Of a stretch of 64,000 nt of DNA, positions 47,119 to 63,672 are shown piece after piece (positions within the stretch are counted from its first letter, which is position 1; each line of letters opens with the position of its first letter). The DNA comes from Thiomicrorhabdus marina (lineage in GTDB: Bacteria > Pseudomonadota > Gammaproteobacteria > Thiomicrospirales > Thiomicrospiraceae). The notes below the pieces were generated by a model that worked only from the letters and a program-made list of their open reading frames with translations, ran no database searches and had not been told where the DNA came from. The position numbers were made by a program, and so were the translations under genes. Where the stretch lies: NCBI RefSeq assembly GCF_017571465.1, contig NZ_JAGETV010000007.1, forward strand, positions 62,001-126,000. The letters run 5' to 3'.

Positions 47119-47135
47119 TGGTATGCCCATTGCTT
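47119..47135 (+). promoter_or_regulatory. Sigma-54 (-24/-12) promoter of the carboxylase operon
   Basis: TGGTATGCCCATTGCTT matches the consensus TGGCACG-N4-TTGCW with two mismatches. The invariant GG and GC are separated by exactly 10 bp. The transcript would start near 47,145. Confidence 0.7.
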
Positions 47136-47220
47136 ATTACGTTTTTAGTAATTAGTAATAAATTGGCGTTTGCGGTGTATTCTTAGCTGCGAAAGGCCTA
47201 AACCGAATGGTAATGAGCAC

Positions 47221-48198
47221 ATGAATGAGCGTTTTTCCAGTTGGGCGAGTCCCAGAACTGAATTAGACAAAACTTCAAAACGTCTTCTCACCGCCGCCAG
47301 TTTTCTGCTGCCGATTCTTTTGTGGTGTTTGGTGAGCTACAGTCCATATATTTGGCATCCGCAGATGGAAATCACCAGCCCTGGGCAGGTCAGTTATTTC
47401 CGTGAAGGTTCTTTGGTCGATAGAGAAGTCTTTGAAATCGAGCGTAACAAGATTCTGGAAAAAACACCTGAAGCAACTGTGGAGCAACTGCCGCAAGGGA
47501 TTCCGTCGAACCCCGTTTATTTGCCGGCACCGCATGAAGTGATGACGGCGATGTACACCGCCTTTACCACGCCTCCAAAACGCAGTAATGAACCTTGGTT
47601 GCACGAGAGCTTATTGCACTCAATTCAGGTCATTGCATGGGGCTTTTTCTGGGCGATGCTGTTCGGTGTGCCGCTGGGGATTTTAGCCGGTACTTACAGT
47701 TCAGCATCTTACCTAATTGAACCCTTTACCGAATTTTTCCGTTATCTACCGGCTCCGGCCTTTGGAGCTTTGGCGGTTGCGGTCTTAGGGATCTATGACG
47801 CGCCGAAAATCGCCATTATCTTTATTGGAACTTTCTTCCAGATGGTACTGATTGTCGCGGCAACCACTCGAAAATTGAATATCGCGCTGATTGAAGCGTC
47901 GTTAACACTTGGCTGTAAAGGTCGCAGAATGATTGGCAAAGTGATTCTGCCGGGCGTGTTGCCAGATTTATACCGCGACATGCGTATCTTGCTCGGGTGG
48001 GCTTGGACTTATCTAATTGTTGCTGAATTAATCGGAACCAGTTCAGGGATTACATGGTTTATTACTCAGCAGGCGCGCTATAAGAATTTCGACAATGTGT
48101 TCGCAGCTATTTTGATGATTGGTTTAATCGGTCTGATTACCGACATGATTTTAGCGCACTTCGGTAAACGCCTGTTCCCATGGCACCAAAACAAATAA
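47221..48198 (+). CDS. ABC transporter permease, urea-carboxylase-associated (TauC/SsuC type)
   Basis: This 325-residue integral membrane protein starts at ATG 47,221 (the frame extends 17 codons upstream without a ribosome site). The first helix is at about 20-40, then a periplasmic insert of about 75 residues, then the binding-protein-dependent transport domain. The latter includes HSIQVIAWGFFWAMLFGVPLG and the cytoplasmic coupling loop EASLTLGCKGRRMIGKVILPGVLPDL (EAA motif). It imports a small organic solute with the 48,213 ATPase. No binding-protein gene is adjacent; a fitting one lies at 62,620-63,606 in the convergent operon. Confidence 0.9.
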   Translation: MNERFSSWASPRTELDKTSKRLLTAASFLLPILLWCLVSYSPYIWHPQMEITSPGQVSYFREGSLVDREVFEIERNKILEKTPEATVEQLPQGIPSNPVYLPAPHEVMTAMYTAFTTPPKRSNEPWLHESLLHSIQVIAWGFFWAMLFGVPLGILAGTYSSASYLIEPFTEFFRYLPAPAFGALAVAVLGIYDAPKIAIIFIGTFFQMVLIVAATTRKLNIALIEASLTLGCKGRRMIGKVILPGVLPDLYRDMRILLGWAWTYLIVAELIGTSSGITWFITQQARYKNFDNVFAAILMIGLIGLITDMILAHFGKRLFPWHQNK

Positions 48199-48212
48199 TC
48201 GAGGGGAATCTT

Positions 48213-49121
48213 GTGACAACAGAGCATCCGTTAGCTAAGTGGAATACGCCGGAAATTGAAGATCGAAACCAGAGGATTCTACAACGTCCACCAAGTTTGA
48301 AGATTTCCGGCATGCATAAGAGTTTTGGGCATGACGGCAAGATGGTCAAAGTTTTAAACGATATTGATTTTACCGCCTACAAACGTGAATTTGTCTGCGT
48401 GGTTGGACCATCTGGCTGCGGTAAATCGACCTTGGCACGTTTGATTGCCGGATTAGAAACCTATGAAGAAGGCGTGATTAGTATCAATGATGAAGTGGTT
48501 TCAGGTCCTGGTCCGGATCGCGGAATGGTTTTTCAAAGTTACTCGCTATTCCCGTGGCTGACGGTTAAGAAGAATGTCATGTTTGGTTTGGTGGAAAACG
48601 GTATGTCGGAAATCTCTGCTGAAGCAGAAGCCTTGCAGTGGATTGATTTGGTTGGGCTAGAGCGTTTTGCCAACTCTTATCCGCATCAGTTGTCGGGTGG
48701 CATGAAACAGCGTGTGGCGATTATCCGTGCTTTGGCTAATAAGCCAAAGGTATTGTTGATGGATGAACCCTTCTCGGCGCTGGATCCAAAGAACCGTTTG
48801 AAGATGCAAAAGTATCTGTTGGAGATTTGGAAAAACATCGATATCACCATCTTCTTTATCACGCACGATTTAGAAGAGGCGATTTACCTAGCAGACCGTA
48901 TTTTGGTGTTGAAGGCGCATCCGGGCGAGGTGGTGGAAACCCTGAATGTGCCCTTGCCAAGACCTCGTAAAGAAGATACTTTTCTATCGGAAGAGTTCCT
49001 TGCCACCAAAGCGTATTTAGAAAGCTTGGTGCATTCGGAAGAAGAGGAAGTCGATATGGAAGAGAAACTGAGCATGGTTCGCATGGTTTCCGTTAAATCA
49101 GATGTACCGGATATTTTTTAG
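48213..49121 (+). CDS. ABC transporter ATP-binding protein (TauB/SsuB type)
   Basis: This 302-residue protein has Walker A GPSGCGKST, Q-loop FQSYSLFPWLTV, signature LSGGMKQRVAIIRAL, Walker B VLLMDEPFSALD and H-loop FITHDLEEA. It powers the permease encoded upstream. I chose GTG 48,213 because GAGGGG lies 6 nt upstream and it follows the permease stop; an ATG at 48,180 lies inside the permease gene. A C-terminal extension of about 50 acidic residues (EEEEVDMEEK) follows the ATPase core. Confidence 0.93.
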   Translation: MTTEHPLAKWNTPEIEDRNQRILQRPPSLKISGMHKSFGHDGKMVKVLNDIDFTAYKREFVCVVGPSGCGKSTLARLIAGLETYEEGVISINDEVVSGPGPDRGMVFQSYSLFPWLTVKKNVMFGLVENGMSEISAEAEALQWIDLVGLERFANSYPHQLSGGMKQRVAIIRALANKPKVLLMDEPFSALDPKNRLKMQKYLLEIWKNIDITIFFITHDLEEAIYLADRILVLKAHPGEVVETLNVPLPRPRKEDTFLSEEFLATKAYLESLVHSEEEEVDMEEKLSMVRMVSVKSDVPDIF

Positions 49122-49123
49122 AT

Positions 49124-49561
49124 ATGAGTAGTGAATTAATTAGAACCAGCGTCTCCCTACCGGGAAGTGTCGCGGAAGAGTTGGAATTTTTAGTCAAGGC
49201 CAATGGTTACAACAACCGTTCGGCTTTGATTGCCGATTTAATTCGTAAAGAGGCGGCGGCTTTCCGTCAGGATCATACCAATGAGATCATGGCCGGAACT
49301 TTCACCATGGTGTACGACCATTCGGTGCCGGATTTGCAGCAGAAGTTAAACGCACTGAAACATAAATATGTGGCGGAGATTATTTCCAGTCTTCAGATTC
49401 AACTGATGGATCAACACACTCTGGAAGTCAATTTAATGCAAGGCAAGGCGCAGGATTTAAAGAAAATCAGTGCCGAGTTAAAAGCGAATCGTGGGGTAAA
49501 GAACGGCAATCTGTATTTGACCCATTCAGCACTTCCGCCAATCTACACCAAGCAAAATTAA
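49124..49561 (+). CDS. NikR-like ribbon-helix-helix regulator without nickel ligands
   Basis: This 145-residue protein has an N-terminal ribbon-helix-helix (IRTSVSLPGSVAEELEFLVKANGYNNRSALIADLIRKE, compared in pieces with NikR GYNNRSEAIRD) and a C-terminal ACT-like domain. The alignment to E. coli NikR is ungapped across the metal site. The position of His76 keeps His (LKHKY), but His87, His89 and Cys95 are replaced: LHVH is LQIQ and Cys is Thr. So it should not be a classical nickel sensor. It probably senses a pathway metabolite and regulates this operon. It starts 2 bp after the ATPase stop. Confidence 0.8.
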   Translation: MSSELIRTSVSLPGSVAEELEFLVKANGYNNRSALIADLIRKEAAAFRQDHTNEIMAGTFTMVYDHSVPDLQQKLNALKHKYVAEIISSLQIQLMDQHTLEVNLMQGKAQDLKKISAELKANRGVKNGNLYLTHSALPPIYTKQN

Positions 49562-49576
49562 GACAGGAGAGATCAC

Positions 49577-50329
49577 ATGACACAAGCCGCAGCAAGCGAA
49601 ACTTATCAAGGGCATATTTGGACAGAGTCCTTTCCTGGTGGGGCGCACTGGTCCGGCGTGATTCGCCGCGGTACGGTTTTGCGTATTACTGACATTAACG
49701 GTGCTGCGAATGTTTCGATGCTTATCAATAACCTTGAAGTGAAGAACGAACGTTACAACATGCCGGATACTCTGAAAGCGCAGAAAACTGCATTTTTGAC
49801 TGTGCCGAATATGTGTTTTAGCGATATGGGACGAGTGATGTGTTCGGTGATTGCCGACACTTGCGGTTGGCACGATACCATCGGCGGTATTTCCAATGCG
49901 GCTTCGGTGAAGAAAAAGTACGGCGAAAAAGATTATCAGCAAGCGCATAACGACTACTACAAAAACGGTTTTGAAAACCTGTTAAACGAGCTCGAAAAAT
50001 GGGGGCTAGGCACTAACGACATCATGCCGACCGTTAACTGGTTCAGCAAGGTTCGTGTCAGCGATGAAGGCACAATGGAATTTATTGAAGGCAATTCGAA
50101 AGCTGGTGATTATGTCGATTTGCGTTTTGAAATGGACTCGATTGTCAGCCTGAGTTTTGCTCAGCATCCGATGGACCCGAACCCGGAATATGCGCCGCAA
50201 CCAATCGAGTTGTCAGTATTCAAAGCCAATCCGGTGGCACAAGACGACCCATGTCGTTTGCACCGTGGCGAAAATGAACGCGCTTACTACAACACCAAAG
50301 TTTACTACGGAGAAAACCCAAATGACTAA
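49577..50329 (+). CDS. cgdA: DUF1989 urea carboxylase-associated protein 1 / carboxyguanidine deiminase subunit
   Basis: This 250-residue DUF1989 protein has [18 protein letters not shown], a likely metal/active-site block, and SRGAAN-like [14 protein letters not shown]. Proteins of this type (UAAP1) next to urea carboxylase were shown in Pseudomonas syringae and relatives to be carboxyguanidine deiminase subunits that release ammonia to give allophanate. It overlaps the next DUF1989 gene by 8 bp, so the two are made together. An AGGAGAG site precedes ATG 49,577. Assignment as the A subunit follows gene order. Confidence 0.85.
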
Positions 50330-50966
50330 GCCTGAATTTGATGAAAACCGCATTGTGTATCGTGAAGTGGTCAAGGCAGGCGATCCTTGGATGCATGAGG
50401 TAAAAGCCGGTCAATATTTTCGCATTGTTGATTTGGAAGGCAACCAAGCCGTGGATACCTTGTTCTATAAAGCCGATGACCAAGCTGAGCGCTATTCGGC
50501 GACCGATACCATTCGCGAGCAGGGCAATATTTATCTGACCACTGGCAGTGTTTTGCGCTCTAATCTGGGGAATCCGATGCTGACGATTGTTGACGATACC
50601 TGCGGTCGTCACGACACCATTGGTGGTGCTTGTTCGGCGGAAAGTAACACCGTGCGTTATTCGATTGATAAACGTCATATGCATTCTTGCCGCGACTCCT
50701 TTTTAAAGGCGTTGAGCAAATGTGAATGCAATCACGGCAAAGCCATGACCAAAGATGAGCTTTCCTCCAATATCAACTTCTTTATGAATGTACCGGTATC
50801 GCCGGACGGTCATTTGGATTTTGACGACGGTATCTCTGCTCCGGGACGTTATGTCGAAATGCAGGCGGATATGGATGTATTAGTGCTGATTTCCAACTGC
50901 CCTCAGTTGAATAACCCTTGTAATGGTTATAACCCGACGCCGGTCGAATTAATCGTTTGGGAATAA
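50322..50966 (+). CDS. cgdB: DUF1989 urea carboxylase-associated protein 2 / carboxyguanidine deiminase subunit
   Basis: This 214-residue DUF1989 protein is a paralogue of the previous one, with [21 protein letters not shown]. It also has [17 protein letters not shown], the counterpart of the first protein's DINGAAN segment. It starts at ATG 50,322 inside the end of cgdA; the frame is open upstream to 50,157 but that part overlaps cgdA. With CgdA it would form the heteromeric deiminase acting between carboxylase and allophanate hydrolase. Four extra Cys ([10 protein letters not shown] and KCEC) distinguish it. Confidence 0.85.
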
Positions 50967-51048
50967 AAACGATTACGACGTACTCATGTCGTTGCGACTA
51001 ACTCAAACAATAAAAAGACTGTTTTAGCTCGGAATTAAAGGAAAGTAA

Positions 51049-54000
51049 ATGTTTAATAAAGTGCTCATTGCAAACCGTGGGGCGATTGCCACTCGTGTCA
51101 TCCGCACCCTCAAAAAAATGGGAATGGGTTCGGTTGTTCTGGCATCGGAAGCGGACCGCGCTTCACTGCATGTTCAAATGGCGGATGAAGTGATCTTCCT
51201 GCCGGGCAATGCGGCCAGCGAAACCTATTTAAATGTGCCTTTAATTATTTCTGAAGCGGTCAAACTCGGTGTCGAAGCGGTTCATCCGGGCTATGGTTTT
51301 TTAAGTGAAAACACCGGTTTTGCCGATGACTGCGAAGCGGCTGGAATTCGTTTTATCGGTCCGACGCCTGAACATATTCGCGATTTCGGTTTGAAACACA
51401 CCGCGCGTGAACTCGCGACCAAAGCCGGTGTTCCGTTGCTACCGGGTTCGTCTTTATTGGAAAGCCCAGAAGAAGCGCTTACTGAAGCGGCTCGAATCGG
51501 TTATCCGGTAATGCTGAAGAGCACCGCTGGTGGTGGCGGTATCGGTATGCAGAAATGCGATAGCGAAACGGAATTAAGTGAAGCCTTTGCACAAGTTCAG
51601 CGTTTAAGCCAAAACTCTTTCGGTCAGGCTGGGTTGTTCTTGGAGAAATTCGTCGTCAATGCACGCCATATTGAAATTCAAGTGTTTGGTGACGGCCGTG
51701 GTGAAGTGGTATCACTTGGTGAGCGTGATTGTTCTTTGCAGCGCCGTAACCAGAAAGTGGTTGAAGAAACTCCGGCTGTCGGCATTAATCCGCAACAGGT
51801 TGCCGAGATGGAGGTCTATGCGGTTGAATTGTGTAAATTGGTTAACTACCAATCGGCCGGTACGGTCGAATATGTCTATGATAGTGATACCAATGATTTC
51901 TATTTCTTGGAAGTGAATACTCGCTTGCAAGTAGAGCACGGTATTACCGAAGAAGTGCGCGGTGTCGATTTGGTCGAATGGATGATTCGCGTCGCCTATG
52001 ACAATACCTTACCGCTTAGTGCCGCACAGATTCCTGCCGCAGACGGCCATTCGATTGAAGTGCGTATCTACGCCGAAGACCCGTTTAAGAATTTCCAGCC
52101 GAGCACCGGCAAGATTACTCAGTGGTCAATTGCTGATGGCTGTCGAATCGAAACGTGGTGTAAAAGCGGCATCGAGGTCAGTTCTTTCTATGACCCGATG
52201 TTGGGCAAGCTGATTGTTAAAGGCAAAGACCGTGAAGAAGCGGTACAAAAGCTACAACAAGTTTTGCATGAATCGCGAATCCACGGCTTTGAAACTAACC
52301 TTGCTTACCTTGCTGCTTTGAGTAAGAACAATAATTTTGTTCAGGGCGCAGGTCTGTTTACCCGTTTCTTGAACGGCTTTAGCCATACGCCGAATACCAT
52401 TGAAGTCACCAACCCGGGAACGCACTCAATGCTGGTGAGTTATCCGGGGCGTGTCGGTTTTTGGGATATTGGTGTGCCGCCGTCCGGGCCAATGGATGCT
52501 TTGTCGCACCAGTTGGCGAACCGCTGTCTGAATAATGATAAGGAAGTCGCGACCATCGAGATGACAGTCTCCGGTATCAGTCTGAAATTCGATACCGATA
52601 CGGTTATCTGTTTGACCGGTGCCGATGTGCAGCCGAAGCTAGATAAAAAAGCGATTCCGATGTATCAGCCGGTCAAGGTTAAAGCCGGTCAGCAATTGAA
52701 AACCAAAGTCATAAAAGCGTTGGGGCAACGCGCTTATCTAGCGGTACTTGGCGGTTTTGATGTGCCGGATTATATGGGCAGTAAAACCACTTTCTCGCTA
52801 GGCGGTTTTGGCGGCCATGGCGGTCGTTTGTTGCGCACCGGTGATGTGTTACGACTGCATAATCTGGAGATCCCAGAAGAGTTGCCAAGCCTGAGCGAGC
52901 AACAGATTCCGGAACTAACCAATCACTATGAAATCGCGGTGGTTTATGGTCCGCAAGGTGCGCCGGATTTCTTTACCGAAAGTGATATTGAAAAATTCTT
53001 TAATGCCGACTGGGAAGTGCATTACAACTCCAGCCGTACCGGTATTCGTCTGGTCGGTCCGAAACCGGATTGGGCCCGTTCCGACGGGGGCGAAGCCGGT
53101 CTGCATCCTTCCAATATTCACGATAATGCCTATGCTATTGGCGCGGTCGATTTTACCGGTGATATGCCGGTCATTCTGGCGCAAGACGGGCCAAGCCTAG
53201 GGGGCTTTGTCTGTCCGGTCACCATTATCGAAGCTGAGCAGTGGAAGATGGGGCAACTGCGTTCCGGCGATAAAATTCGCTTTAAGGCGGTATCGATTGA
53301 AACCGCCGAAGCGGCTTTGCAAGCGCAGGGTGCGGCGATTGCCGAATTGAATGCGCCGGTTTGTCCTGAACTGACTTTCTTAAATGAAGCAACCGAACAA
53401 GATTGCTTAGCGTTGGAAGTTGACGACTCCGAACATGAATTCGGCGTTAAATATCGTCGTTCCGGTGACAGCCGAGTGCTGATTGAATACGGCAAGATGG
53501 AATTGGATTTGGCATTACGTTTCCGAATTCAGGTGTTATTGGAGCGTTTAAAAGCCAATAAAGCAGACGGTTCTTGGGCGTTTATCAAAGAGTTGACGCC
53601 GGGAATTCGTTCCATGCAGGTGCATTACGACCCACGTCAAATTTCGCAAAACCAAATCATCGAAAAACTGTATGCACTGGAAGCGGAAATCTCCTCCGGT
53701 AAGGATTTAACCGTTAAGAGTCGTATTGTTCGTTTGCCATTGTCTTGGGATGACCCGAGCACGCGTTTGGCGATTGAAAAATACATGACCACAGTGCGCC
53801 CGAATGCGCCGTGGTGTCCGAGTAATATCGAGTTTATCCGCCGCATTAACGGCTTGGATAGTATCGAAGATGTTAAACGCATTGTTTTTGATGCTAAATA
53901 TCTGGTGATGGGACTTGGCGATGTTTATCTTGGCGCGCCGGTGGCAACGCCGATGGATCCAAGACATCGTTTGGTAACCACTAAATACAATCCAGCGCGA

Positions 54001-54684
54001 ACGTGGACACCGGAAAATGCAGTCGGCATCGGCGGTGCATATATGTGTGTTTACGGGATGGAAGGGCCGGGTGGTTATCAGTTCGTCGGTCGTACTATTC
54101 AGATGTGGAACGCCTATCACCGTACTAACCGTTTCACCGAAGAGAAGCCTTGGTTATTGGATTTCTTCGACCAGATTCAGTTCTATCCAGTTAGTGAAGA
54201 AGAGCTGAAGCAGGCTCGCGTCGATTTCCCGCTAGGGCGTTTTGATATTGAAATCGAAGAGACCGAATTATCGCTAAATGCCTATCAAGCGTTTATTGAA
54301 GAGAACCAGAGTAGTATTAGCGAATTTAAAACCAAACAGCAAAATGCCTTTGATGCCGAACGCCAATACTGGGAAGAATCCGGTTTGGCGAATTTTGAAA
54401 CCGAAACCGCACAGGATGAAGTACAAAGTGAAGGCATGATTGAAATTCCGGAAGGTTATGAAGCGGTCACTTCGCCGATTACCGGCAGTATCTGGAAAAT
54501 CGAAGCCAAACCGGGCGACAAAATCGAAGAAGATCAGACGATTGCCATTCTGGAAGCGATGAAAATCGAGGTGCCGATTGGTGCGGAAATGGGTGGAACC
54601 ATCACCGAAATTCTGGTCAATGAAGGTGATCTGATTCAGACCGGTCAGACCTTAATGATTATGCAAGTGGAGGAAGAAGCATGA
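51049..54684 (+). CDS. Biotin-dependent urea/guanidine carboxylase
   Basis: This is a 1211-residue single-chain carboxylase. Biotin carboxylase spans about 1-450 ([42 protein letters not shown]). A KipA/AHS2-type domain follows ([18 protein letters not shown]), then KipI/AHS1 ([11 protein letters not shown]), a linker, and a C-terminal biotinyl domain with ILEAMKIE (Lys near 1172). It carboxylates urea to allophanate or guanidine to carboxyguanidine. The two DUF1989 genes next to it favour guanidine, but I cannot confirm the substrate-specifying residue from sequence alone. The stop overlaps the hydrolase start (ATGA). Confidence 0.93.
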
Positions 54685-56495
54685 GCAATAACTTAACGGA
54701 TTTGCGCATCGCTTTGCTGAAACAATCCTATGCGGCCGGTGAGACTACGCCGCAACAAGTGGTGACTGAAATTCTAAGCAAAGCGGCCGAATATGCCGAC
54801 TATAACCTGTTTATTACCTTGTTTGATAACTCGCAGGTTGCGCCTTATTTACAAGGTTTGCAGAGTACCGAAATTAATAGTCTGCCGCTGTGGGGGATTC
54901 CATTTGTCATTAAAGACAATATTGATTTAGCCGGTATTCCGACAACTGCCGGTTGTGCGGAATATGCATATACTCCAGAAGAATCGGCGAGCGTAGTGCA
55001 AGAACTGATTGATGCGGGGGCGATTCCAATTGGTAAATCCAATCTGGATCAGTTCGCGACCGGCTTGGTCGGCACGCGTTCGCCGTATGGGGTTTGTCAT
55101 AATGCGTTTGATTTCGAGAAGATTTCCGGCGGCTCCAGTTCGGGGTCGGCAGTTGCTTTGGCGTTGAACTTGTGTAGTTTTTCTTTGGGAACCGATACCG
55201 CTGGTTCCGGTCGAGTTCCGGCGGCGTTTAACAACCTGATTGGCCTTAAACCGTCTAAAGGTTTATTAAGTACCAAAGGTGTGGTTCCGGCGGTGCGCTC
55301 ACAAGATGTGGTCAGTATTTTTGCCCTGAATTCACAAGATGCCTACAGTGTTTTTGAAGTGGCGGCGAGCTTTGATACGAAAGATGAGTTTAGTCGAAAG
55401 GAAGTCGATTTAACGCCACCGCCTTGGCCGACTAAGCCGGTTATCGGCATTCCTGATAAAGCCAGTCTTATCTTCTCTGATGATGCTATGGCTGAGACTA
55501 ATTTCCACGACACTTGTAGCCAGTTGCAGTCGTTGGGTTTTGAATTAAAAGAAGTGCCTTTCAGTGCTTGGTTGGAAACCGCCAAACTACTGTATGGCGG
55601 CGCTTGGGTAGCGGAACGTTATGCAGCGATTGAAGATTTCATAGAACAACATGAAGCGATTATGGACCCGACCGTTGCCGGTATTATCGCTTCGGCTCGT
55701 AATCTTTCCGCTGCGGATGCCTACAAAGGCAGTTACGCTCTGCAGAAAGCGATTCGCGAAACCGAAATGCTTTGGCAAGCAGCGGGTGTTGATTGCATGA
55801 TGACACCAACCACGCCGACGATTTATTCGCTTACTGAAGTGGCCGAAAATCCGGTTGGGCTGAATTCGATTTTGGGGACTTATACCAATTTTATGAATTT
55901 GCTGGATTATGCGGCAGTCGCCATGCCGACCGGTTTCCGTGCTGATGAGCTACCGACTGGCGTAACCTTCTTTTCGCCTGCCGGTAGCGATCGCCAGTTA
56001 TTGAAACTATGCGATGAATTACATCCGCAGTTTGTTGAATTTTCTGGTTCAAAACAGACGCCGGTGCCACAGAGCAATCCGGAAATGTTTGCCAATCCAG
56101 CGGTGATTCCTTTGGCAGTGGTTGGTGCGCATCTCAGTGGTTTTCCATTGAATAGTCAGCTTTTAGAGCGTGGTGCCAAGTTATTGGAAACCACTAAAAC
56201 GGCTGAAAAATACCAATTCTATGAGTTAGCCAGTCGCCCGATTCTGAAACCCGGTTTAGTTAAGCAGCAACAGGGTGGCAGTTCAATTGAGTTGGAAATT
56301 TGGGCGATGCCGAAAGAACATCTCGGTAGCTTTCAAGCACTGATTCCATCACCGCTAGGGTTAGGTAAAGTTGAACTCATCGACGGTCGAGAAGTGGTTG
56401 GGTTTATCTGCGAACCTTATGGCATCGACGGTGCGAAAAATATTACTGCAACCGGCGGCTGGCGCAATTGGATGAATCAACGCGAAGCAGATTAA
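54681..56495 (+). CDS. atzF: Allophanate hydrolase
   Basis: This 604-residue amidase-signature enzyme has catalytic Lys78 in [11 protein letters not shown], the Ser block [14 protein letters not shown], and nucleophile-region [22 protein letters not shown]-terminal domain (about 460-604) ends ATGGWRNWM. It converts allophanate to ammonia and bicarbonate, the last step of the urea/guanidine route. It is translationally coupled to the carboxylase and closes the operon at a strong terminator. Confidence 0.93.
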
Positions 56496-56519
56496 TCACA
56501 TAAAAATAAGCCGTAAATA

Positions 56520-56556
56520 AAAACGCCCTTAAGATTCAATTTTAAGGGCGTTTTTT
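56520..56556. terminator. Terminator between the two convergent nitrogen operons
   Basis: AAAACGCCCTTAA and TTAAGGGCGTTTT form a 13-bp stem with a 9-nt loop. T runs lie on both sides, so it serves both operons. Confidence 0.92.
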
Positions 56557-56612
56557 ATGTCTTAAACTAATCCCTGTAAATGCAAGATTGAACTGCATTT
56601 ACAGGAAAGAGA

Positions 56613-57974
56613 TTAGAACAAGTGGCTATAGCGTTTAATTTCCCAAGCAGAAATCGTTTCGTGATACTCACGCCATTCTCGACGCTTGTAAGTGATGAAT
56701 TCATCGCTCAGTTCTTTACCAAGCACTTCTTCAACAAACGGATCGGCCTCAAAAGCTTCAACCGCTTCCAATAGGTTTTGCGGTAGGAAGTCGATACCGC
56801 GAGCAGAACGTTCTTCATCACTCAATTCGTACAAGTTGTCTTCTTGTGGGTGACCTGGATCGAGTTTTTCACGAATCCCTTGCAGACCTGCTGCCAGTAC
56901 CAAAGTAGCCGCTAGATAAGGGTTAACCGCACCGTCGGCATTACGCGATTCAAAACGGCCGCCGCCCATCGGAACACGAACCGAGTTGGTTCGGTTGTTA
57001 GAGCCAAACGAGTTAAATACCGGTGCCCATGAGAAGGTTTTCATGTCGCCTTGACGAACCAGACGTTTGTAGCTGTTTACCGTTGGCGAGAAGACCGCGC
57101 ACAGCGCCGGGCCGTGTTTAATCACGCCGGCGATAAATTGATAACCGAGTTCGGTTAGTCCTAAGCCGCGAGGATCGTCTTCCGGTTTGCATTTAAAGAC
57201 GTTCTCGCCGGTCTCTTTATCGAATAGCGACATATTAAAGTGCGCGCCATTCCCGGTTTTGTCGGCGTAAGGTTTCGGCATAAAGGTTGCCAAGAGACCC
57301 TCTTCTTGTGCATAGTGTTTTGCCATATAGCGGAAGAAGATAAAGCGGTCGCACATGGTTAGGGCATCGCTGTACTGGAAGTCGAATTCATACTGACCAT
57401 TCGCGTCTTCATGGTCGAAAGAGTACAAATCCCAACCAAGGTCGTTAATGGTGGTCGCCATTTTATCCAACCAAGTGAAACGGTTCATAAAACTACGCAC
57501 GTCATAACAAGGCTTGACCAGACGGTCGTCCGGATCAGGCACCGATAAGCTGCCGTCCTCTTCTTCTTTCAGCACGAACAGTTCGCATTCGATACCTAAG
57601 TTGAAACCAAAGCCCATCTCTTCGGCTTCGGCCAGTACTTTTTTTAGTGCGACACGAGTATTGATTTCGTATGGTTCGCCATGCAGTGTGTTGTCGGCGG
57701 CCATCCACATCATTTCCGGTTGCCACGGCAGTTGGATGGCGCTGTTTAAATCTGGAACCGAAGCGATTTCATCTTCATTCGGTTTTTGTCCAAGACCGTC
57801 CAGCGCGTAACCGGTGTAAAGTTCCGAACCTTCAACCATATGTTCCAAGTGATTAATCGGCACCACTTTACCTTTCGGGATACCGTGAATATCGACATAA
57901 GCGCCAAGGCAGTATTTCACGCCTTTCGCTTTCCATTCTTCTTTGAGTTGTTTGACATCTACTTCGTGGTTCAT
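56613..57974 (-). CDS. glnT: Type III glutamate-ammonia ligase (GlnT/GMAS-like)
   Basis: This protein of about 453 residues belongs to the glutamine synthetase fold. It has [17 protein letters not shown] (active-site Glu), [25 protein letters not shown], the ATP-grasp-like NSYKRLV and [23 protein letters not shown]. GlnT-type enzymes make glutamine from glutamate and ammonia; close relatives make gamma-glutamylmethylamide or other gamma-glutamylamides, so methylamine or another amine could be the substrate. ATG 57,974 is chosen because AGGAG lies 7 nt upstream, whereas the ATG at 57,980 abuts that site. It is the last gene of the minus operon. Confidence 0.88.
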
Positions 57975-58024
57975 TTGCATTCTCCTATTTAAAGATGCGA
58001 TTCAGTAATCAATTACCGCTGACG

Positions 58025-58795
58025 TTATTCGTCATCGGTTAATGTTTGGTGATAAGAATGCGGTAGCGGCGGTTGCTCTTTCAGCCCTGCGCGAATAGTT
58101 TCGGCTAAGTCTTCCCGCATCCATTCAAATAGCTCTTCGCCTTTATTAACGGTTGCGAGGCTTGGTTTACCGGTGACGCCATTGGCGCTGGTTCGATTGA
58201 CCGGATGCGAGAAAACGCAATTTTCGGTGCGATCAGGGTCGTCGCTGTCGGTAAGTTTGTCTTGGCGCACGATTTGTGGCGCCAACGCCATCATTAGCGA
58301 GGTTTCCGCTTCATTGGCATGCCAGTCTTCGGCATCCTCAAAATGGCGCTGTTTGACTCGCTCGCTGACGGTGGCTGAATTAATCAGAGCGACCATTAAG
58401 TCGTCGTGTTCGGCTCGCAGCATTTCCAGTGCGCAGCGCAAAGGAGCAAAGTTGGAAACGTGACTATTAAGGATAAACAGACGCTTAAAACCGCTGTAAG
58501 CGACCCAGTCGCCAACTTCTTTGACGACATCGATTAGGGTTTTCGGTTGCAGGGCTATCGTTCCCGGCCAACGTTTGGAGTGGCCGATTGAGCAGCCGTA
58601 AGGTAAGGTTGGCAGTATAGCGATGTCGGTTAAATCACCGACGGCTTTAGCAAGTTGGTCGGCAATTTCCGAATCCATGCCGCAGCCTAAATGCGGGCCA
58701 TGCTGTTCGGTCGCGCCGACCGGTAATAAAGCGGCGCAGTTGTCAGCTTGTGCGTATTTGGCGATTTCAGGCCAAGTCATGTTATGCCATTGCAT
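58025..58795 (-). CDS. Creatininase-family amidohydrolase
   Basis: This 256-residue protein has LLPVGATEQHGPHLGCGMD (metal-binding Glu, His and Asp), SIGHSKRWPGTIAL, the usual NGHGGN-type loop as LNSHVSN, and WHANEAETSLMM. Creatininases open cyclic amides; family members act on creatinine, formamidopyrimidine intermediates and mycofactocin precursors. The Glu of true creatininase (NGHYEN) is Ser here, so creatinine is unlikely to be the substrate. It lies 44 bp upstream of glnT in a nitrogen-controlled operon, fitting hydrolysis of an amide or lactam intermediate. Confidence 0.85.
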   Translation of the reverse strand: MQWHNMTWPEIAKYAQADNCAALLPVGATEQHGPHLGCGMDSEIADQLAKAVGDLTDIAILPTLPYGCSIGHSKRWPGTIALQPKTLIDVVKEVGDWVAYSGFKRLFILNSHVSNFAPLRCALEMLRAEHDDLMVALINSATVSERVKQRHFEDAEDWHANEAETSLMMALAPQIVRQDKLTDSDDPDRTENCVFSHPVNRTSANGVTGKPSLATVNKGEELFEWMREDLAETIRAGLKEQPPLPHSYHQTLTDDE

Positions 58796-58880
58796 GCTTC
58801 TTTCCTTTTTTTATTATCTTTTTTAGAAAAGGTAATACCTTTTGGGTAAAAAAATTCCGAATGTCTTACCTTTTCGGTTG

Positions 58881-59822
58881 TTAATCTTTGAGCTTTTGAT
58901 CTGCTAAATAAGACTTGGGAATCGCTGCTACGTTTTGTGAGACAGGCTTTTTATTGCTTTGTTGTTTGTTGCGGGCCGAGAGGGTTTCCAATAACGCGGC
59001 GATAAAGATTAGTAAGCCACCGAACATTTCGATTGGCTTCATGGTTTCACCAAGAATCAGACTGGCGGAGACAACGGCCGTGACCAGTTCCAAAATAAGG
59101 ATGATCGAGGATTTGCCGGATTCCATTTGTGTTACTGCCCATTGAGTTCCGTAATTTGCCAGTAGCATCCAAATCATGGCAAAACCGATTAATGTCAGCC
59201 AAGCATGGCTAGAGACCTCCGGTACGATTGAGAGATCCATTTGCAGAAGTGCTAATAAGGCCAAAAGGGTTGTACCCAAAAACATGAAATTCAGTTTGAG
59301 TACCGTCGGTAATTCAGGGGTGGCGCGAAAAATGACATTATTCATTGCAAACAGGAATCCGGCGCTGATTGCCAGTAAATCAATCCAGCTCGGTGCTGAG
59401 TTAAACGCATTAAAGCCGCCGACCACAAGAAAAGCACCGATGATCGATAAGCCCATACCGATACTGCGAATCGGGGTGATTTTTTCACCCAAAAACAGCC
59501 TGCCTCCGATAAGTCCCCATAACGGCAAGAGATAGAACAGCACCATAGCGCGGATGACATCGCCGAAAATCATAGAGGTATTAAAGGCTAATAGGGCGCC
59601 GCCACCGAACAACAGTATTCCAAGTAAAGCCAACCAGTTTTGTTTGATTTGCGTTGGATAACGCCACAGAAAAGCGGAGATGGCGATAAACATCAAGGCA
59701 TAGACCCAAAACGAAATCGCTATGCCGTTAAAGCCGTAGTCGTGCAGAATTTTTAAGGGCAGCCAAGTCATTCCCCAGATAACAGCGGTGGTTAATAAAA
59801 TAATGACAGCGAAAGAGGGCAT
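58881..59822 (-). CDS. EamA/DMT-superfamily transporter
   Basis: This 313-residue protein has about ten hydrophobic helices in two EamA repeats (ILLTTAVIWGMTWLPLK near the start; SGKSSIILILELVTAVVSASLILGE in the second half). The C-terminal tail of about 30 residues is polar. DMT proteins export or exchange small metabolites, often amino acids or amines. In this operon it could export a toxic by-product or move a pathway intermediate. The substrate is not readable from sequence. Confidence 0.88.
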   Translation of the reverse strand: MPSFAVIILLTTAVIWGMTWLPLKILHDYGFNGIAISFWVYALMFIAISAFLWRYPTQIKQNWLALLGILLFGGGALLAFNTSMIFGDVIRAMVLFYLLPLWGLIGGRLFLGEKITPIRSIGMGLSIIGAFLVVGGFNAFNSAPSWIDLLAISAGFLFAMNNVIFRATPELPTVLKLNFMFLGTTLLALLALLQMDLSIVPEVSSHAWLTLIGFAMIWMLLANYGTQWAVTQMESGKSSIILILELVTAVVSASLILGETMKPIEMFGGLLIFIAALLETLSARNKQQSNKKPVSQNVAAIPKSYLADQKLKD

Positions 59823-59850
59823 GGTTAAGTTATTTCCGTTTTATAGAGTG

Positions 59851-60699
59851 TTAGCGATTTTCAATCGAGTTATATTCAGAAAATTCTTGTTTAAGGCGTT
59901 GGTTTACCCACTGATTGACTTCCCAAATATCGACCACCGGCATTTGCGTATAAGGTTGTAGATGGCAATAACCGTCTGGACCAAATTCCGGTGTCATCGT
60001 GGTTTGCGAGGATTTATTGAAGGCTCTGTACTGTATGATTTTTTGCCAGAAACGAAGATGTGACTGCAATGCGGTTCGATATTCCGGGGCACGCGGATCG
60101 GGAACTTGTGGCCCTTGATCATAACCGACGCGAGCGTGTAGGTGATGAATCTGCGGAATTAGGCGTTCCAAGGTTTCGTTTTCCGAATCCATTAAGCGTT
60201 CGCATACCACACACCAGTGACTGATATCGGCGGTGAGTTTTAAATCTGGCAGAGCTTGTGCAATACGCAAGGTTGACCAAGGGTTATAAGTTGGGCGACT
60301 GCGATGGGTTTCAAAACTAAGCGTTAAACCGTATTGCTCTTGAAGCGCCATCGCTTTGCTGAAAAACTCGATAGATTCGGTTTCTGACCATGCATCGCAA
60401 CCGACTATGCAGTTTGCAAAAAGAGGGTTGAGCGGTAGAGCTTGCGTGATTTGTTGTTCGATATCGTCCAAATGTTGTTGTGGTGTCCAAGAACGGTCAG
60501 GAACATAGTCTCCGCCAGAAACAATTTCAGCAATGTAATCGCACTGTTCGGCTTGTATTGCCGAAATCCAAACCGGAAGTTTTTCGCGATTTGGGGCGCG
60601 TGCTTCAATACCGTCGAATCCCGCTGCTGTCGCACTTCGACAGGCTTGAGCAATCGGCAAGCTATTGCCCCATAGGGTTTTAAAGGTTTTCAGTTTCAT
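59851..60699 (-). CDS. TIM-barrel sugar isomerase/epimerase-like protein
   Basis: This 282-residue protein belongs to the xylose isomerase-like TIM barrel (AP_endonuc_2) family: GFDGIEARAPN, LTLSFETHRSRPTYNP (metal-binding Glu and His), LKLTADISHWCVVCERLM (Asp and His) and IHHLHARVGYDQGPQVPDP. The metal-ligand pattern Glu...Asp...His...Glu (MTPEFGPDGY) is intact. Such enzymes isomerise or cleave hydroxy-acids and sugars, or carry out dehydrations in degradation routes. It is 28 bp upstream of the transporter gene. Its reaction here is unknown. Confidence 0.8.
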   Translation of the reverse strand: MKLKTFKTLWGNSLPIAQACRSATAAGFDGIEARAPNREKLPVWISAIQAEQCDYIAEIVSGGDYVPDRSWTPQQHLDDIEQQITQALPLNPLFANCIVGCDAWSETESIEFFSKAMALQEQYGLTLSFETHRSRPTYNPWSTLRIAQALPDLKLTADISHWCVVCERLMDSENETLERLIPQIHHLHARVGYDQGPQVPDPRAPEYRTALQSHLRFWQKIIQYRAFNKSSQTTMTPEFGPDGYCHLQPYTQMPVVDIWEVNQWVNQRLKQEFSEYNSIENR

Positions 60700-60723
60700 G
60701 GCGCGGCTTTCACTTATGCGTGG

Positions 60724-61506
60724 TTATTCAAAGTGCTTCGGAAAGCGATTATGTTGCAGATAAAACTGCCAGTCGTGGTTCGGCCAAAGATTGGCTTTTT
60801 CTTTTTCGCTGAGCGTTTTCAGTTTGCGGATACTGTCTATAGCCAGTGCTTCGTTATCCTGCCAGCACAAGCCGGGGGCGATTTCTTGCTCAATATTTTC
60901 TTGGAGATCGGCGGCATCACCAGCCAGAATAATCGGTGGGCCTTTCGGCATCTCAATCATCATCGACATGTGACCGGCAGTATGTCCCGGGGTTTCGATG
61001 GCATGCACTCCCGGCACCAATTCGTATTCGCCGGTTTGGATTTTCCAATTTAGCGGCAGGTCAAAATCGCTGGCGAAATAAGCATCGTCAGCGGGTTCTT
61101 TAGCGGCCTGCATCTCTCGTTGATGAACATGAACTTCTGCACCACAGAATTCGCAGAGCCCTCCGGCGTGATCAAAATGCAGGTGGCTGCAAAATACCAT
61201 GTCAATGTCTTGCGGTTTTAGGCCGAGGATTTCCAGCTTGTTTGGTAGTCGTTGTTCTTCGGTCATTTCCGGTGGCCCGAAAGGAAAGCCTTCGTGCTCG
61301 TAGTATTGGGCTTTTAGTTCCGGTTGATTGATTTTTTGGTAATCACAGCCAACATCAAACAAGATTCTGCCGTTTTTGGTTTCAATCAGATAAGCCATGA
61401 TCGGCGCTTTAATAATTTCACCATGCCCGTGATTGCGGGTAGAAAGTGTCTTTTCGTAGGTGTGTTCACCTGTGAGAATCGACCAGAATTTGCTTACCTG
61501 AGTCAT
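60724..61506 (-). CDS. Metallo-beta-lactamase-fold hydrolase, N-acyl-homoserine-lactonase-like
   Basis: This 260-residue protein has the di-zinc motif FCSHLHFDHAGGLCEF, IETPGHTAGHMSM, LAGDAAD and the final His of NHDWQF. The layout matches AttM/AiiB-type lactonases. In a nitrogen-catabolic operon it more probably opens a lactone, lactam or ester of a pathway intermediate than quenches quorum signals; some relatives are 4-pyridoxolactonases. The start at 61,506 lies 11 bp after the desaturase stop. Confidence 0.85.
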   Translation of the reverse strand: MTQVSKFWSILTGEHTYEKTLSTRNHGHGEIIKAPIMAYLIETKNGRILFDVGCDYQKINQPELKAQYYEHEGFPFGPPEMTEEQRLPNKLEILGLKPQDIDMVFCSHLHFDHAGGLCEFCGAEVHVHQREMQAAKEPADDAYFASDFDLPLNWKIQTGEYELVPGVHAIETPGHTAGHMSMMIEMPKGPPIILAGDAADLQENIEQEIAPGLCWQDNEALAIDSIRKLKTLSEKEKANLWPNHDWQFYLQHNRFPKHFE

Positions 61507-61517
61507 CGCTGGCTTCC

Positions 61518-62531
61518 TTAGTGGGCGGTTAAAAATGAAACACCGTCGACACCAATAAAGCTTTCGCCTTCATCGTGTTTTACGGGCAGGTTAATTGGAT
61601 CGCCGTTGAGAATTCGCGGCACACGGTACTTGTGGAAGCTTTTCATTAGATGACGGAAGGTCAGTACTTGTGTCTGATCTGCGCCGTATAATTCTTTATG
61701 TATCTTTGGTAGTCGATACCAAGGTTGTAGTTGTTGGCGATGATGCACATTGTGGTAAGAAAAGTTCAAGGCAATTAGATTCAGCCAAGGATGTTTAACC
61801 GAAAAGAGGTTGGAATAGGTATTGTGTTCCTCAAAATGCTTATCGCGAAGTTTGGCTTCCGGTCCGCGTTTCTGGTCGAGAGTCTCAAACACTTCATAGG
61901 TGTGTTGATGAACATCCATAAAGCGCATAAAGGTTAAAAACAGCAGATAAGCGATGGCATATAGCCAGAGAAAATCCAAAGAAATCGAAGCCAGATAGCT
62001 GAATAGCGCCAGCCGGATAACCAGTACCGATAAGACTCGGGCACGGCGCTTATGGCGGTTTGGTTTGATAAACGGCAAGATAATCACCAAGGCATGCATA
62101 AGAATTTCCAGAGCCGGAATATATGCCCATTCCAGAATTTGTAATGTTTTCAGTGCAACTGGATGACGCTGTAATATCGGACGAAAATCAAAGCTGACAA
62201 TGTCTGCTCGATCAGAGTGATGACGGGCATGTTTGTGAGAAATATCGTCGAAATTTGAATAGCTACAGCCGGTTATCCAAAGCATGAGTTCGCTAAACCA
62301 GCGATTGTGTTTGCGTTCTCTAAATATACTGAGATGCGCCGCTTCGTGGATAAGGTACGCACCGATGACCATGGAATGGGCAAACCATAAGACCCCGAAC
62401 AGATTCAAATACCAAACATCGGTTAACATGCTTAAGCCGCCAAGAAGGTAGCCAGCTAAAACGTAGCTGCTTGCCAGTAAGGTTGGCAGCAACGCATCAT
62501 CATGTCGAAAGGTTTTTGCTGAACTAGGCAT
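61518..62531 (-). CDS. Membrane di-iron fatty-acid-desaturase-family oxygenase
   Basis: This 337-residue membrane protein has the three histidine boxes HEAAH, HARHH and HNVHH, plus the extra metal-shell HQHTYE and EEHNTYSNLF. Several transmembrane helices surround them. The family includes acyl desaturases, alkane/sterol hydroxylases and amino-acid-derived substrate oxygenases such as RtxC. The context (nitrogen catabolism; no fatty-acid genes) suggests hydroxylation or desaturation of an imported nitrogen compound. It is the first gene after the binding-protein hairpin. Electron donors are not encoded here. Confidence 0.82.
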   Translation of the reverse strand: MPSSAKTFRHDDALLPTLLASSYVLAGYLLGGLSMLTDVWYLNLFGVLWFAHSMVIGAYLIHEAAHLSIFRERKHNRWFSELMLWITGCSYSNFDDISHKHARHHSDRADIVSFDFRPILQRHPVALKTLQILEWAYIPALEILMHALVIILPFIKPNRHKRRARVLSVLVIRLALFSYLASISLDFLWLYAIAYLLFLTFMRFMDVHQHTYEVFETLDQKRGPEAKLRDKHFEEHNTYSNLFSVKHPWLNLIALNFSYHNVHHRQQLQPWYRLPKIHKELYGADQTQVLTFRHLMKSFHKYRVPRILNGDPINLPVKHDEGESFIGVDGVSFLTAH

Positions 62532-62567
62532 TGTGGTTTACTCACTTAATATTTTTAAATAACGGTT

Positions 62568-62597
62568 AAAGAAAGCGGCCAAAGAGGCCGCTTTCTT
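62568..62597 (-). terminator. Strong intra-operon hairpin after the binding-protein gene
   Basis: A 12-bp GC-rich stem (AAGAAAGCGGCC/GGCCGCTTTCTT) with a 5-nt loop lies 23 bp after the binding-protein stop. In the minus direction only three Ts follow, so it is probably a partial terminator or a 3' stabiliser giving more binding protein than downstream enzymes. Confidence 0.6.
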
Positions 62598-62619
62598 GTT
62601 TATTTCCGTTATCGAACGG

Positions 62620-63606
62620 TTACATACCTTCGGTAATGCTGCCGTCAAAATAGCTATTTACATCTTGTGGTGTGTCATAAACTTTATTGTTGACATTAAA
62701 GTCATCAGAAACCTTTGACGAACCGAAGATTGAGTCAAGCCCAGTGCCTTTTTTGTAAGCCGCCTTTGCTTCTTCAAGAGTTAATAGTTTGGTGCCTTCT
62801 AGGAAGGGAGCATATTCTTCAGGCGTTAGACCAACGCGAGAAGACATGATTTTTAGAGCGTCGTCGCGAGTTTTCGGGTCTTGGATATAGCCCACTGCTT
62901 GATACCAAACTTTCACCACTTTTTCCCAGTCTGCATGACGAGCCGCTAGGCTTGCAGGGTTAACAGAAAGGCCATCGTAGATAATCCCTTTCTTGTCGGC
63001 AGAGGTGAATACCGCGGTTGACCCCGGTACCATTTTTAGAGCTTGTCCCGAACTTGGTTGCCACGCAACAATTGCGTCAACTTCGCCAGAAGCCAATACT
63101 TGTGGGGTTTCGTTAGTAGGAACGTTAACTAAAGTGACGTCCGACTCTTGCATACCGTTTTCTTCAAGCGCGGTTAACAGCAGTAGATGACCCACGAAAC
63201 CGACTTCAACACCGATTTTTTTGCCTTTTAAGTCCTTGATTGAAGAAATACCCGGTTGTGCAACCACCATATCGTTACCGTTTGAATAGTCGTTGATTGC
63301 AATCATTACGCTCGGTGCGCCGGTTGATCCGGTTACCAGTGCATCGCCATTGGTCATGCCAACGGCATCCAATTGACCGGCCGCAAAAGCATCCATTGAA
63401 GCCACGTAGTCAAACCATTCGAATTGCACATCGACGCCTTCTTTAGCGAACCAATCTTTTTCGACGGCGACTTCCCAGGCTACCCAGCCAGGCCAGTCGC
63501 TGTAACCGATTTTTAATGGTTCTGCCGCGTTTGCTGTCCAGCCCATCGCTGAAAGTGCCAGACCGGCAAGGATATTTTTAGATTTAGAAAGAAAAGTCGA
63601 CTTCAT
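62620..63606 (-). CDS. ABC transporter periplasmic substrate-binding protein (TauA/SsuA/NMT1-like)
   Basis: This 328-residue exported protein has a Sec signal peptide ([18 protein letters not shown], cleaved near ANAA). The mature part is a type II periplasmic fold: [63 protein letters not shown] and [17 protein letters not shown] 63,606 is chosen (GGAG 8 nt upstream); the frame is open to 63,792 but that part contains the sigma-54 promoter. It is the missing partner for the permease/ATPase of the convergent operon. Relatives bind taurine, sulfonates, nitrate, cyanate or thiamine precursors. Confidence 0.92.
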
Positions 63607-63655
63607 GCTAGAACTCCAATAATTATTACGAAAACTATATTTGGTAATAAAGTGG

Positions 63656-63672
63656 AAGCAGTAGTCGTACCA
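63656..63672 (-). promoter_or_regulatory. Sigma-54 (-24/-12) promoter of the minus operon
   Basis: On the minus strand, TGGTACGACTACTGCTT matches TGGCACG-N4-TTGCW with two mismatches and exact GG-N10-GC spacing. It should start transcription near 63,646, about 40 nt before the start codon. Confidence 0.72.

Follow-up and report, generated by a model that had tools for sequence, protein, structure and literature searches.

The stretch of DNA analyzed here, called the window, comprises 64,000 nucleotides of Thiomicrorhabdus marina (contig NZ_JAGETV010000007.1, positions 62,001 to 126,000) and is part of a 150 kb contig in a genome of 2.83 Mb. It carries two convergent operons that very likely form a nitrogen-scavenging system, as a preliminary description of this DNA had proposed, and all seven minus-strand genes listed there were found where it had placed them. 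Read from 63606 down to 56613, the minus strand encodes an NMT1/SsuA-like substrate-binding protein (SBP; 62620-63606, Pfam NMT1), which would belong to an ABC importer of guanidine or a guanidino compound; a predicted membrane di-iron hydroxylase of the FA_desaturase family (DES; 61518-62531, Pfam 114 bits), proposed to act on methylguanidine or another N-alkylguanidine; a metallo-beta-lactamase-fold hydrolase that often adjoins DES (MBL; 60724-61506, Pfam Lactamase_B); a probable xylose-isomerase-like barrel (TIM; 59851-60699, AP_endonuc_2), proposed as an N-(hydroxymethyl)guanidine lyase that would stand in functionally for the enzyme MgdL; an EamA transporter of the DMT superfamily (58881-59822, Pfam), a probable product exporter; a creatininase-family amidohydrolase (CRN; 58025-58795, Pfam 245 bits); and a TIGR03105 glutamate-amine ligase (GS3; 56613-57980, NCBIfam 666.8 bits, cut-off 469.6), the last two with putative accessory roles. 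The plus-strand operon (47170-56495) encodes an ABC permease (47221-48198, taking as start the ATG after a palindrome described below; the listed open reading frame begins at 47170), an ABC ATPase (48180-49121, Pfam), a NikR-like ribbon-helix-helix regulator (49124-49561, profile match), the carboxyguanidine deiminase subunits CgdA (UAAP1; 49577-50329, 342 bits, cut-off 205.95) and CgdB (UAAP2; 50323-50966 with an approximate start, 353 bits, cut-off 284.7), a guanidine carboxylase (51049-54684) and an allophanate hydrolase (54681-56495, TIGR02713, 739.8 bits, cut-off 511.05). A terminator-like hairpin flanked by A and T runs was read from the sequence between the converging operons (56519-56556). 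A candidate trpB RNA motif of Rfam at 56513-56605, which overlaps this hairpin, scored under the gathering threshold and was rejected.

The carboxylase of the window displayed an Asp in place of Asn 1330 of urea carboxylase and kept Asp 1584 (alignment with 5i8i, positions counted by hand). An Asp at the equivalent of position 1330 of the Kluyveromyces lactis urea carboxylase and the conserved Asp 1584 are the criteria of the guanidine type (PMC11410670), and because both diagnostic aspartates are present the enzyme was assigned to guanidine and not to urea. Thus, of the "urea/guanidine carboxylase operon" holding the ABC permease and ATPase that had been described at first, guanidine and the two transporter genes stand and urea is to be dropped. 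CgdA, CgdB and the allophanate hydrolase all exceeded their profile cut-offs, so that the guanidine carboxylase pathway is complete in the window; it shares with the known pathway (Gca, CgdAB and allophanate hydrolase) the full enzyme set and the diagnostic residues, and differs from it by the addition of an oxidative module ahead of carboxylation (PMC11410670, PMC12186494). Behind the carboxylase operon, two relatives (G015 and G025; L042:3825-13564 and L090:14018-18400) carried genes for a LysR-like regulator, a second ABC transporter, a binding protein (TIGR03427, 374 bits in L042) and a biuret-hydrolase-type protein (280 bits in L042, under the cut-off of 370), which might constitute a branch for guanylurea or biuret.

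The distribution of these genes was surveyed in 62 genomes of the host family and in 370 genomes of the host class. DES was present in 24 of the 62 family genomes, and TIM and MBL in the same 24; a full-length carboxylase occurred in 23 of these 24 genomes in contrast with none of the other 38 (Fisher P = 4e-16, uncorrected for shared descent), the sole exception (G011) being an assembly of about 120 contigs. A GS3 orthologue (83-95% identical) was found in 16 of the 24 DES-bearing genomes and nowhere else in the family. The expectation that the minus-strand genes travel with the DUF1989-carboxylase operon was therefore borne out in the family for DES, TIM and MBL, and less constantly for GS3. 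At class level, all 10 genomes with TIM fell within the 34 with carboxylase (P = 1e-11, genomes taken as independent). Clustering of the genes is far beyond chance.

Arrangement of the genes varied among loci. DES was accompanied by MBL, EamA and a closely similar SBP in 18 of 19 family loci (G015 contributing two), by TIM in 17 and by CRN and GS3 in 10; a gene for carboxylase or allophanate hydrolase lay on the same 20 kb in 14. G010 and G015 had no TIM adjoining DES, a relative 48-50% identical to TIM adjoining the carboxylase operon instead. In G015, an OHCU decarboxylase (TIGR03164, 125.6 bits, cut-off 96.25) and another ABC transporter were seen next to DES (L034:16721-19811), which suggests a wider nitrogen island. 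Among 22 DES loci outside the family, TIM adjoined DES in 14, MgdL in two (L158, L161) and neither in six. An Arenicellales locus (L057) presented DES-MBL-EamA, TIM on the opposite strand, and SBP-permease-ATPase-CRN-GS3-CgdA-CgdB-carboxylase; in G162 (L087) SBP-permease-ATPase-CRN-GS3-DES-TIM-CgdA-CgdB-carboxylase-allophanate hydrolase followed each other on one strand, MBL and EamA being absent, with a carboxylase copy that we consider incomplete because the match spans residues 443-1118 only and has one internal stop. SBP was contiguous with permease and ATPase in these two loci and in L055, L060 and L061 (three places carry two handles each, L057 being also L083, L060 also L081 and L056 also L082). 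MBL adjoined DES alongside either lyase, TIM or MgdL, and did not adjoin it in L063, L066 (where it lies beyond the carboxylase), L068, L084, L085 and L087. CRN adjoined GS3 in L055, L057, L087, L163 and L165; in G398 and G188 both were inside the carboxylase operon (L165 and L163), with DES-TIM or TIM plus an MgdH-like oxygenase on another contig. The seven genes are thus modules, namely SBP with the ABC genes, DES-MBL-TIM-EamA, and CRN with GS3, and the single linear pathway read from them at first has to be abandoned, given this split and a GS3 orthologue in only 16 of the 24 DES-bearing family genomes. EamA had as neighbour, in two DES loci (L161:2739-3434 and L062:5525-6214), a protein some 230 residues long that by eye resembles class I glutamine amidotransferases.

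Exchange of partner genes pointed to the chemistry. In the operon of Vreelandella boliviensis published in 2025, MgdH hydroxylates methylguanidine, MgdL splits the hemiaminal formed and guanidine carboxylase follows; MgdL is reported as narrowly specific for N-(hydroxymethyl)guanidine and needs D49 and R51 for activity (PMC12508155). One locus (L111, genome G375) displayed a guanidine-I element, SBP-permease-ATPase-CgdA-CgdB, a guanidine-II element, carboxylase, a dioxygenase and a 225-residue protein with D49 and R51; its layout and riboswitch places match those of the published operon, with both residues at the exact published positions (PMC12508155), and we take the dioxygenase and the 225-residue protein as the probable MgdH and MgdL. 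D49 and R51 were conserved in 8/8 aligned MgdL-like sequences. All four pairings of hydroxylase and lyase occurred: MgdH with MgdL (L111, L112), an MgdH-like dioxygenase with TIM (L086, L088; 71 and 56% identical, respectively, to the L111 dioxygenase, and in genomes without an MgdL match at 1e-5), DES with MgdL (L158, L161), and DES with TIM (the window and its relatives). L158 (G381) is DES-MBL-MgdL and L161 (G272) DES-MBL-MgdL-EamA behind a guanidine-I riboswitch, so that compared with DES-MBL-TIM-EamA of the window MgdL stands exactly at the position of TIM; neither genome was among those with TIM (1e-25) or dioxygenase (1e-40). In G396 the L086 cluster continues into CgdB, carboxylase and allophanate hydrolase (L156), and in G188 the carboxylase was on a separate contig (L163). 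The host genome gave no MgdL match (E up to 1e-5), and none of the 62 family genomes an MgdH-type 2-oxoglutarate dioxygenase at 1e-20, a search without a positive control of its own (a related query matched 12 of the 370 class genomes). As the pairings swap and MgdL occupies the TIM position, DES is most likely a hydroxylase that does the work of MgdH and TIM a lyase that does that of MgdL, and as MgdL is narrow for N-(hydroxymethyl)guanidine (PMC12508155), methylguanidine is the leading substrate.

L086 also presented a further variant (L086:9046-17221), in which TIM, CRN, a GS3-like protein, a ureohydrolase, a nitrilase-like protein and the MgdH-like dioxygenase lie beside a guanidine-I riboswitch. 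The ureohydrolase was rejected as a guanidinase: the equivalents of Thr105 and Trp313 are Ile and Val, and His222 is kept (positions hand-counted; the chain and the paper differ by two in their numbering).

The resemblance to the MgdH/MgdL system extends to hydroxylase and lyase genes attached to an ABC importer, CgdA, CgdB and guanidine carboxylase, to guanidine riboswitches in related loci and to the same chemistry, as far as it can be deduced (PMC12508155). The two systems differ in the hydroxylase, a predicted membrane di-iron enzyme in the window versus the soluble 2-oxoglutarate dioxygenase MgdH, and in the lyase, a probable TIM barrel versus the beta-barrel MgdL (PMC12508155). In addition, the window contributes MBL, EamA, CRN and GS3, and the scanned family loci have a NikR-like gene and a palindrome where a riboswitch was not found. 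The statement that no pathway of this kind had been described thus has to be narrowed, since demethylation by MgdH/MgdL leading into guanidine carboxylase is published (PMC12508155); here, unrelated enzymes seem to carry out the same task.

Control by guanidine riboswitches is frequent in the guanidine carboxylase pathway, though not required, and in other lineages such elements were found with DES. Of the 22 DES loci beyond the family, 10 (L052, L053, L055, L056, L058, L063, L066, L068, L084 and L087) had a guanidine-II element immediately before DES, which ended in five of them 1 to 13 bases ahead of the extrapolated first DES residue; in L161 a guanidine-I element preceded DES-MBL-MgdL-EamA. 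The guanidine-II element for which binding was tested recognizes guanidine and methylguanidine about equally (PMC12508155).

In the host family, both operons share a palindrome. This repeat of 26 bp, TATTAC-N14-GTAATA, proposed as operator, occurred without mismatch exactly twice in the host genome, at the starts of the two operons: one 17 bases upstream of the SBP start (63624-63649) and one before the permease operon (47135-47160); the reversed control pattern occurred once. A third copy with one mismatch, found by sequence match, precedes the CRN/GS3 pair (58812-58837). The palindrome is a post-hoc find of a script that sought shared words and inverted repeats in the leaders, and shuffles of the window yielded no copy. 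It preceded the permease in 11 of the 12 family genomes read (all but G025) and SBP, which stands before DES in some family genomes and before CRN in others, in 20 of 22 (all but G007 and G013); exact copies were found in 4 of 13 CRN leaders of relatives. The 24 DES genomes contained 58 exact copies versus 21 of the reversed control, whereas in the 38 genomes without DES the numbers were 18 and 19 (sums by hand). Of 57 listed copies in DES genomes, 48 had DES or carboxylase no farther than 15 kb away on their contig and nine did not; among the latter, those of G011 and G012 are near contig starts.

The palindromes were accompanied by sigma-54-like promoters, scored against the sigma-54 consensus TGGYRYRNNNNTTGCW. 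A match without mismatch abuts the palindrome before the permease operon (47119-47134, plus strand), and one with a single mismatch precedes the SBP-DES operon (63657-63672, minus strand). Matches with at most one mismatch were found in 7/9 palindrome-bearing permease leaders (10 examined) in contrast with 0.3% of random 51-base windows, and with at most two mismatches in 13/20 palindrome-bearing SBP leaders (22 examined) in contrast with 3.1%; the leaders, taken as they are from related genomes, do not count as independent, and the comparison windows were drawn from entire loci rather than from intergenic DNA alone. In many genomes the promoter abuts the palindrome or ends seven bases ahead of it. 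The four palindrome-bearing CRN leaders (of 13) presented no sigma-54-like match with fewer than four mismatches. A sigma-54-like promoter beside the palindrome is as expected for nitrogen limitation.

The regulator gene of the plus-strand operon offered a candidate repressor for these sites. Its product just reaches the NikR profile NF003381 (107.6 versus 105), and compared with 2bj1 it displayed QIQ for HVH and Thr for Cys, so that one of four nickel ligands is kept (the high-affinity ligands of NikR being three His and one Cys). In 13 family genomes HVH was replaced by QIQ (10), QVQ (two) or QSQ (one), and Cys by Thr in all; in five genomes outside the family the Cys was lost in all and HVH was kept in L055 and L165. 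We infer that the palindrome is the probable binding site of this protein, and guanidine or methylguanidine its probable ligand.

Features of the individual enzymes were consistent with some of the roles first given to them and not with others. DES matched PF00487 with 114.1 bits (cut-off 29.7), and the residues of its three histidine boxes (H62, H66, H101, H104, H105, H260, H263 and H264) were invariant in 16/16 members. A sequence search of the PDB gave chance matches only for DES and none for TIM, and Foldseek with the DES model gave weak matches (best 1.8e-3). GntB, the transmembrane enzyme of guanitoxin biosynthesis that makes hydroxylated arginine (PMC10367076), is like DES a membrane enzyme and acts on a guanidino compound; it is biosynthetic (PMC10367076), whereas the operon of DES is degradative, and DES shows no particular closeness to GntB. 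The NCBIfam profile of GntB was matched weakly by 7 of 16 DES members, and the profile matches common to all 16 were lipid and carotenoid enzymes. The role of the di-iron oxygenase as an oxidising step, linked to guanidine carboxylation, is supported. Past the right end of the window, a rubredoxin/reductase fusion and a cyanase-like gene amid ABC transporter genes were recognized by eye upstream of the cluster (L023:8348-18289); the fusion could supply electrons to DES. TIM scored 27.6 bits against PF01261 (cut-off 31.1), 19 of 20 members matching at E up to 0.01; its model (pLDDT, the per-residue confidence, 87.7) was nearest in fold to the Art22 isomerase and D-tagatose 3-epimerase, and E130, D158, H186, H188 and E238 were invariant in 20/20.

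For the remaining enzymes the roles suggested initially did not hold as well. MBL keeps HxHxDH, scores 156.8 against the AiiA family (cut-off 375) and aligns Asp200 with Tyr194 of AiiA. Lacking an equivalent of this Tyr and lying far under lactonase cut-offs, MBL does not fit a lactonase-like ring opening, and it was discarded as an N-acyl-homoserine lactone (AHL) lactonase of the AiiA type. CRN is a member of PF02633, scored 127.4 bits against the creatininase profile TIGR04448 (cut-off 235) and has HVSN where creatininase has HYEN; at that score a creatininase step is not sustained. The nearest solved relative of GS3 was the glutamate-methylamine ligase 9qur (395.8 bits), and in the alignments GS3 presented Thr and Ala at the positions of Asp50 and Ser53, the ammonium-site residues of ammonia-using glutamine synthetase; 9qur and GS3 are alike in being without this Asp and Ser. 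Its closest solved relatives also include 7cql, titled type III glutamate-ammonia ligase, the name that TIGR03105 gives to GS3. Capture of ammonia by GS3 is doubtful on account of its nearest relative and of the replaced residues.

Taking together the guanidine-type carboxylase residues, the co-occurrence, the gene swapping, the riboswitches on DES in relatives and the shared palindrome, we infer the enzyme activities, the exact substrate, and the target and ligand of the regulator as follows. The two convergent operons would be one regulon that, when nitrogen is limiting, lets the cell draw it from guanidine and from methylguanidine or a close N-alkylguanidine. Uptake would depend on the ABC importer (SBP, permease and ATPase); DES would hydroxylate the N-methyl carbon, and TIM would split the product into guanidine and formaldehyde. 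Guanidine would then be carboxylated and, through the carboxylase, CgdAB and allophanate hydrolase, yield ammonia and CO2. The transporter EamA is a probable product exporter, accessory roles are proposed for MBL, CRN and GS3, and the NikR-like repressor, devoid of most nickel ligands, is likely to recognize the palindrome that adjoins each sigma-54-like promoter. We consider this explanation as a whole probable. Oxidative demethylation of a methylated guanidine, followed by guanidine carboxylation, thus replaces the chemistry of the preliminary description as the better supported one.

Several observations weigh against the methylguanidine regulon. The confidence of the DES model was moderate (pLDDT 78.8). 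At gathering score, 11 of the 22 DES loci from other lineages (L057, L059, L060, L061, L062, L064, L065, L067, L070, L085 and L158; the DES start is cut off in L059 and L067) showed no guanidine riboswitch before DES, and none was detected in seven family loci at that score or in the window between 46650 and 64000 at E up to 1. Neither TIM nor MgdL adjoined DES in L052, L053, L062, L064, L065 and L070; five of these loci are cut by a contig end within a few kb and L070 is not. In the latter, from Nitrosospira (L070:9929-10981, 41% DES), the 21 kb lacked the partner genes tested and the scan for a guanidine riboswitch was negative, so the DES family may include enzymes with other substrates. 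TIM and MgdL did not overlap (0/10 TIM genomes with MgdL, 0/7 MgdL genomes with TIM), which is weak evidence alone (P = 0.10 among carboxylase genomes). The genomes of L086 and L088 were not searched for DES genome-wide; there, TIM and the MgdH-like oxygenase also adjoin ureohydrolases, that of L086 without the guanidinase Thr and Trp, and TIM may therefore act more widely. The MgdL sequences of L158 and L161 shared only 34 and 27% identity, respectively, with the L111 sequence, and the L161 genome (G272) had no carboxylase match at 1e-200. Since methylguanidine rests on MgdL and the copies beside DES have diverged, another N-alkylguanidine is a possible substrate.

The same architecture could also serve another guanidino compound, such as creatine, guanidinoacetate, agmatine, arginine or 4-guanidinobutyrate: DES would hydroxylate the carbon beside the guanidino nitrogen, TIM would split the hemiaminal into guanidine and an aldehyde or oxo acid, and EamA would export the carbon product. 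The weak matches of 7/16 DES members to GntB, a maker of hydroxylated arginine, lead in this direction, as do the ureohydrolases next to TIM and the MgdH-like oxygenase in L086 and L088, a gene above the creatininase cut-off 2.7 kb upstream of TIM in L088, and the nearest solved relative of the L088 oxygenase, annotated as an ethylene/succinate-forming enzyme (244 bits), a class that frees guanidine from arginine. However, the matches common to all 16 DES members were lipid and carotenoid enzymes and not GntB, and in DES operons the TIM position can be held by MgdL, which is narrow for N-(hydroxymethyl)guanidine (PMC12508155); we rate such a substrate as unlikely, though well within consideration. 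Degradation of creatinine or creatine, in which CRN would open creatinine, DES and TIM would demethylate or cleave creatine and guanidine would be the nitrogen product, appears improbable. CRN does belong to PF02633, and the L088 gene near TIM exceeds the creatininase cut-off (272 versus 235), but CRN of the window falls under it (127 versus 235) with HVSN for the HYEN segment, was found in only 10 of 19 family loci and, together with GS3, also occurs in carboxylase operons without adjoining DES or TIM (L163, L165).

A last possibility is that two nitrogen systems without any connection happen to be neighbours, one strand serving the use of guanidine and the other an independent oxidative route for some compound. 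Convergent strands and the terminator-like hairpin between them would suit this, as would the distance between DES and carboxylase in some relatives (30 and 39 kb in G010 and G015, different contigs in G012 and G025). Against it stand the co-occurrence over 62 genomes, the shared palindrome, the guanidine-II riboswitches on DES, an importer divided between the operons, with SBP encoded in one and the permease and ATPase encoded in the other, and the contiguity of the genes in other lineages, and it is strongly disfavoured. That the two convergent operons are one system, as was first proposed, is thus supported by co-occurrence, by contiguity elsewhere, and by the shared palindrome and sigma-54-like promoters. 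Apart from the operons, a C4 antisense RNA at 41002-41088 of the window (Rfam RF01695, 52.5 bits) suggests phage-derived sequence there.

In the open-access literature we found no paper joining guanidine carboxylase with creatininase and fatty acid desaturase, none joining mini-ykkC with fatty acid desaturase and, judging by title and start of abstract, nothing on such a system among papers on methylguanidine and desaturase; the words desaturase, creatininase, TIM barrel and isomerase are absent from PMC12508155. More tentatively than the regulon itself, at slightly under even confidence, we propose that a new enzyme pair, DES as methylguanidine hydroxylase and TIM as N-(hydroxymethyl)guanidine lyase, has replaced MgdH and MgdL and that, in this family, a nickel-blind NikR-type repressor has replaced the guanidine riboswitches as a protein sensor of guanidine or methylguanidine. 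If the regulon is as described, the same demethylation of methylguanidine would also be carried out by two further unrelated families that mix with the known ones, and functions would be assigned to two uncharacterised protein clades; the pairings of DES with MgdL and of MgdH with TIM let each new enzyme be paired with a partner from a published family. The use of methylated guanidine would extend to a family of sulfur oxidisers and to several lineages known from metagenome bins, with a candidate protein-based guanidine sensor in loci where riboswitches were not found.

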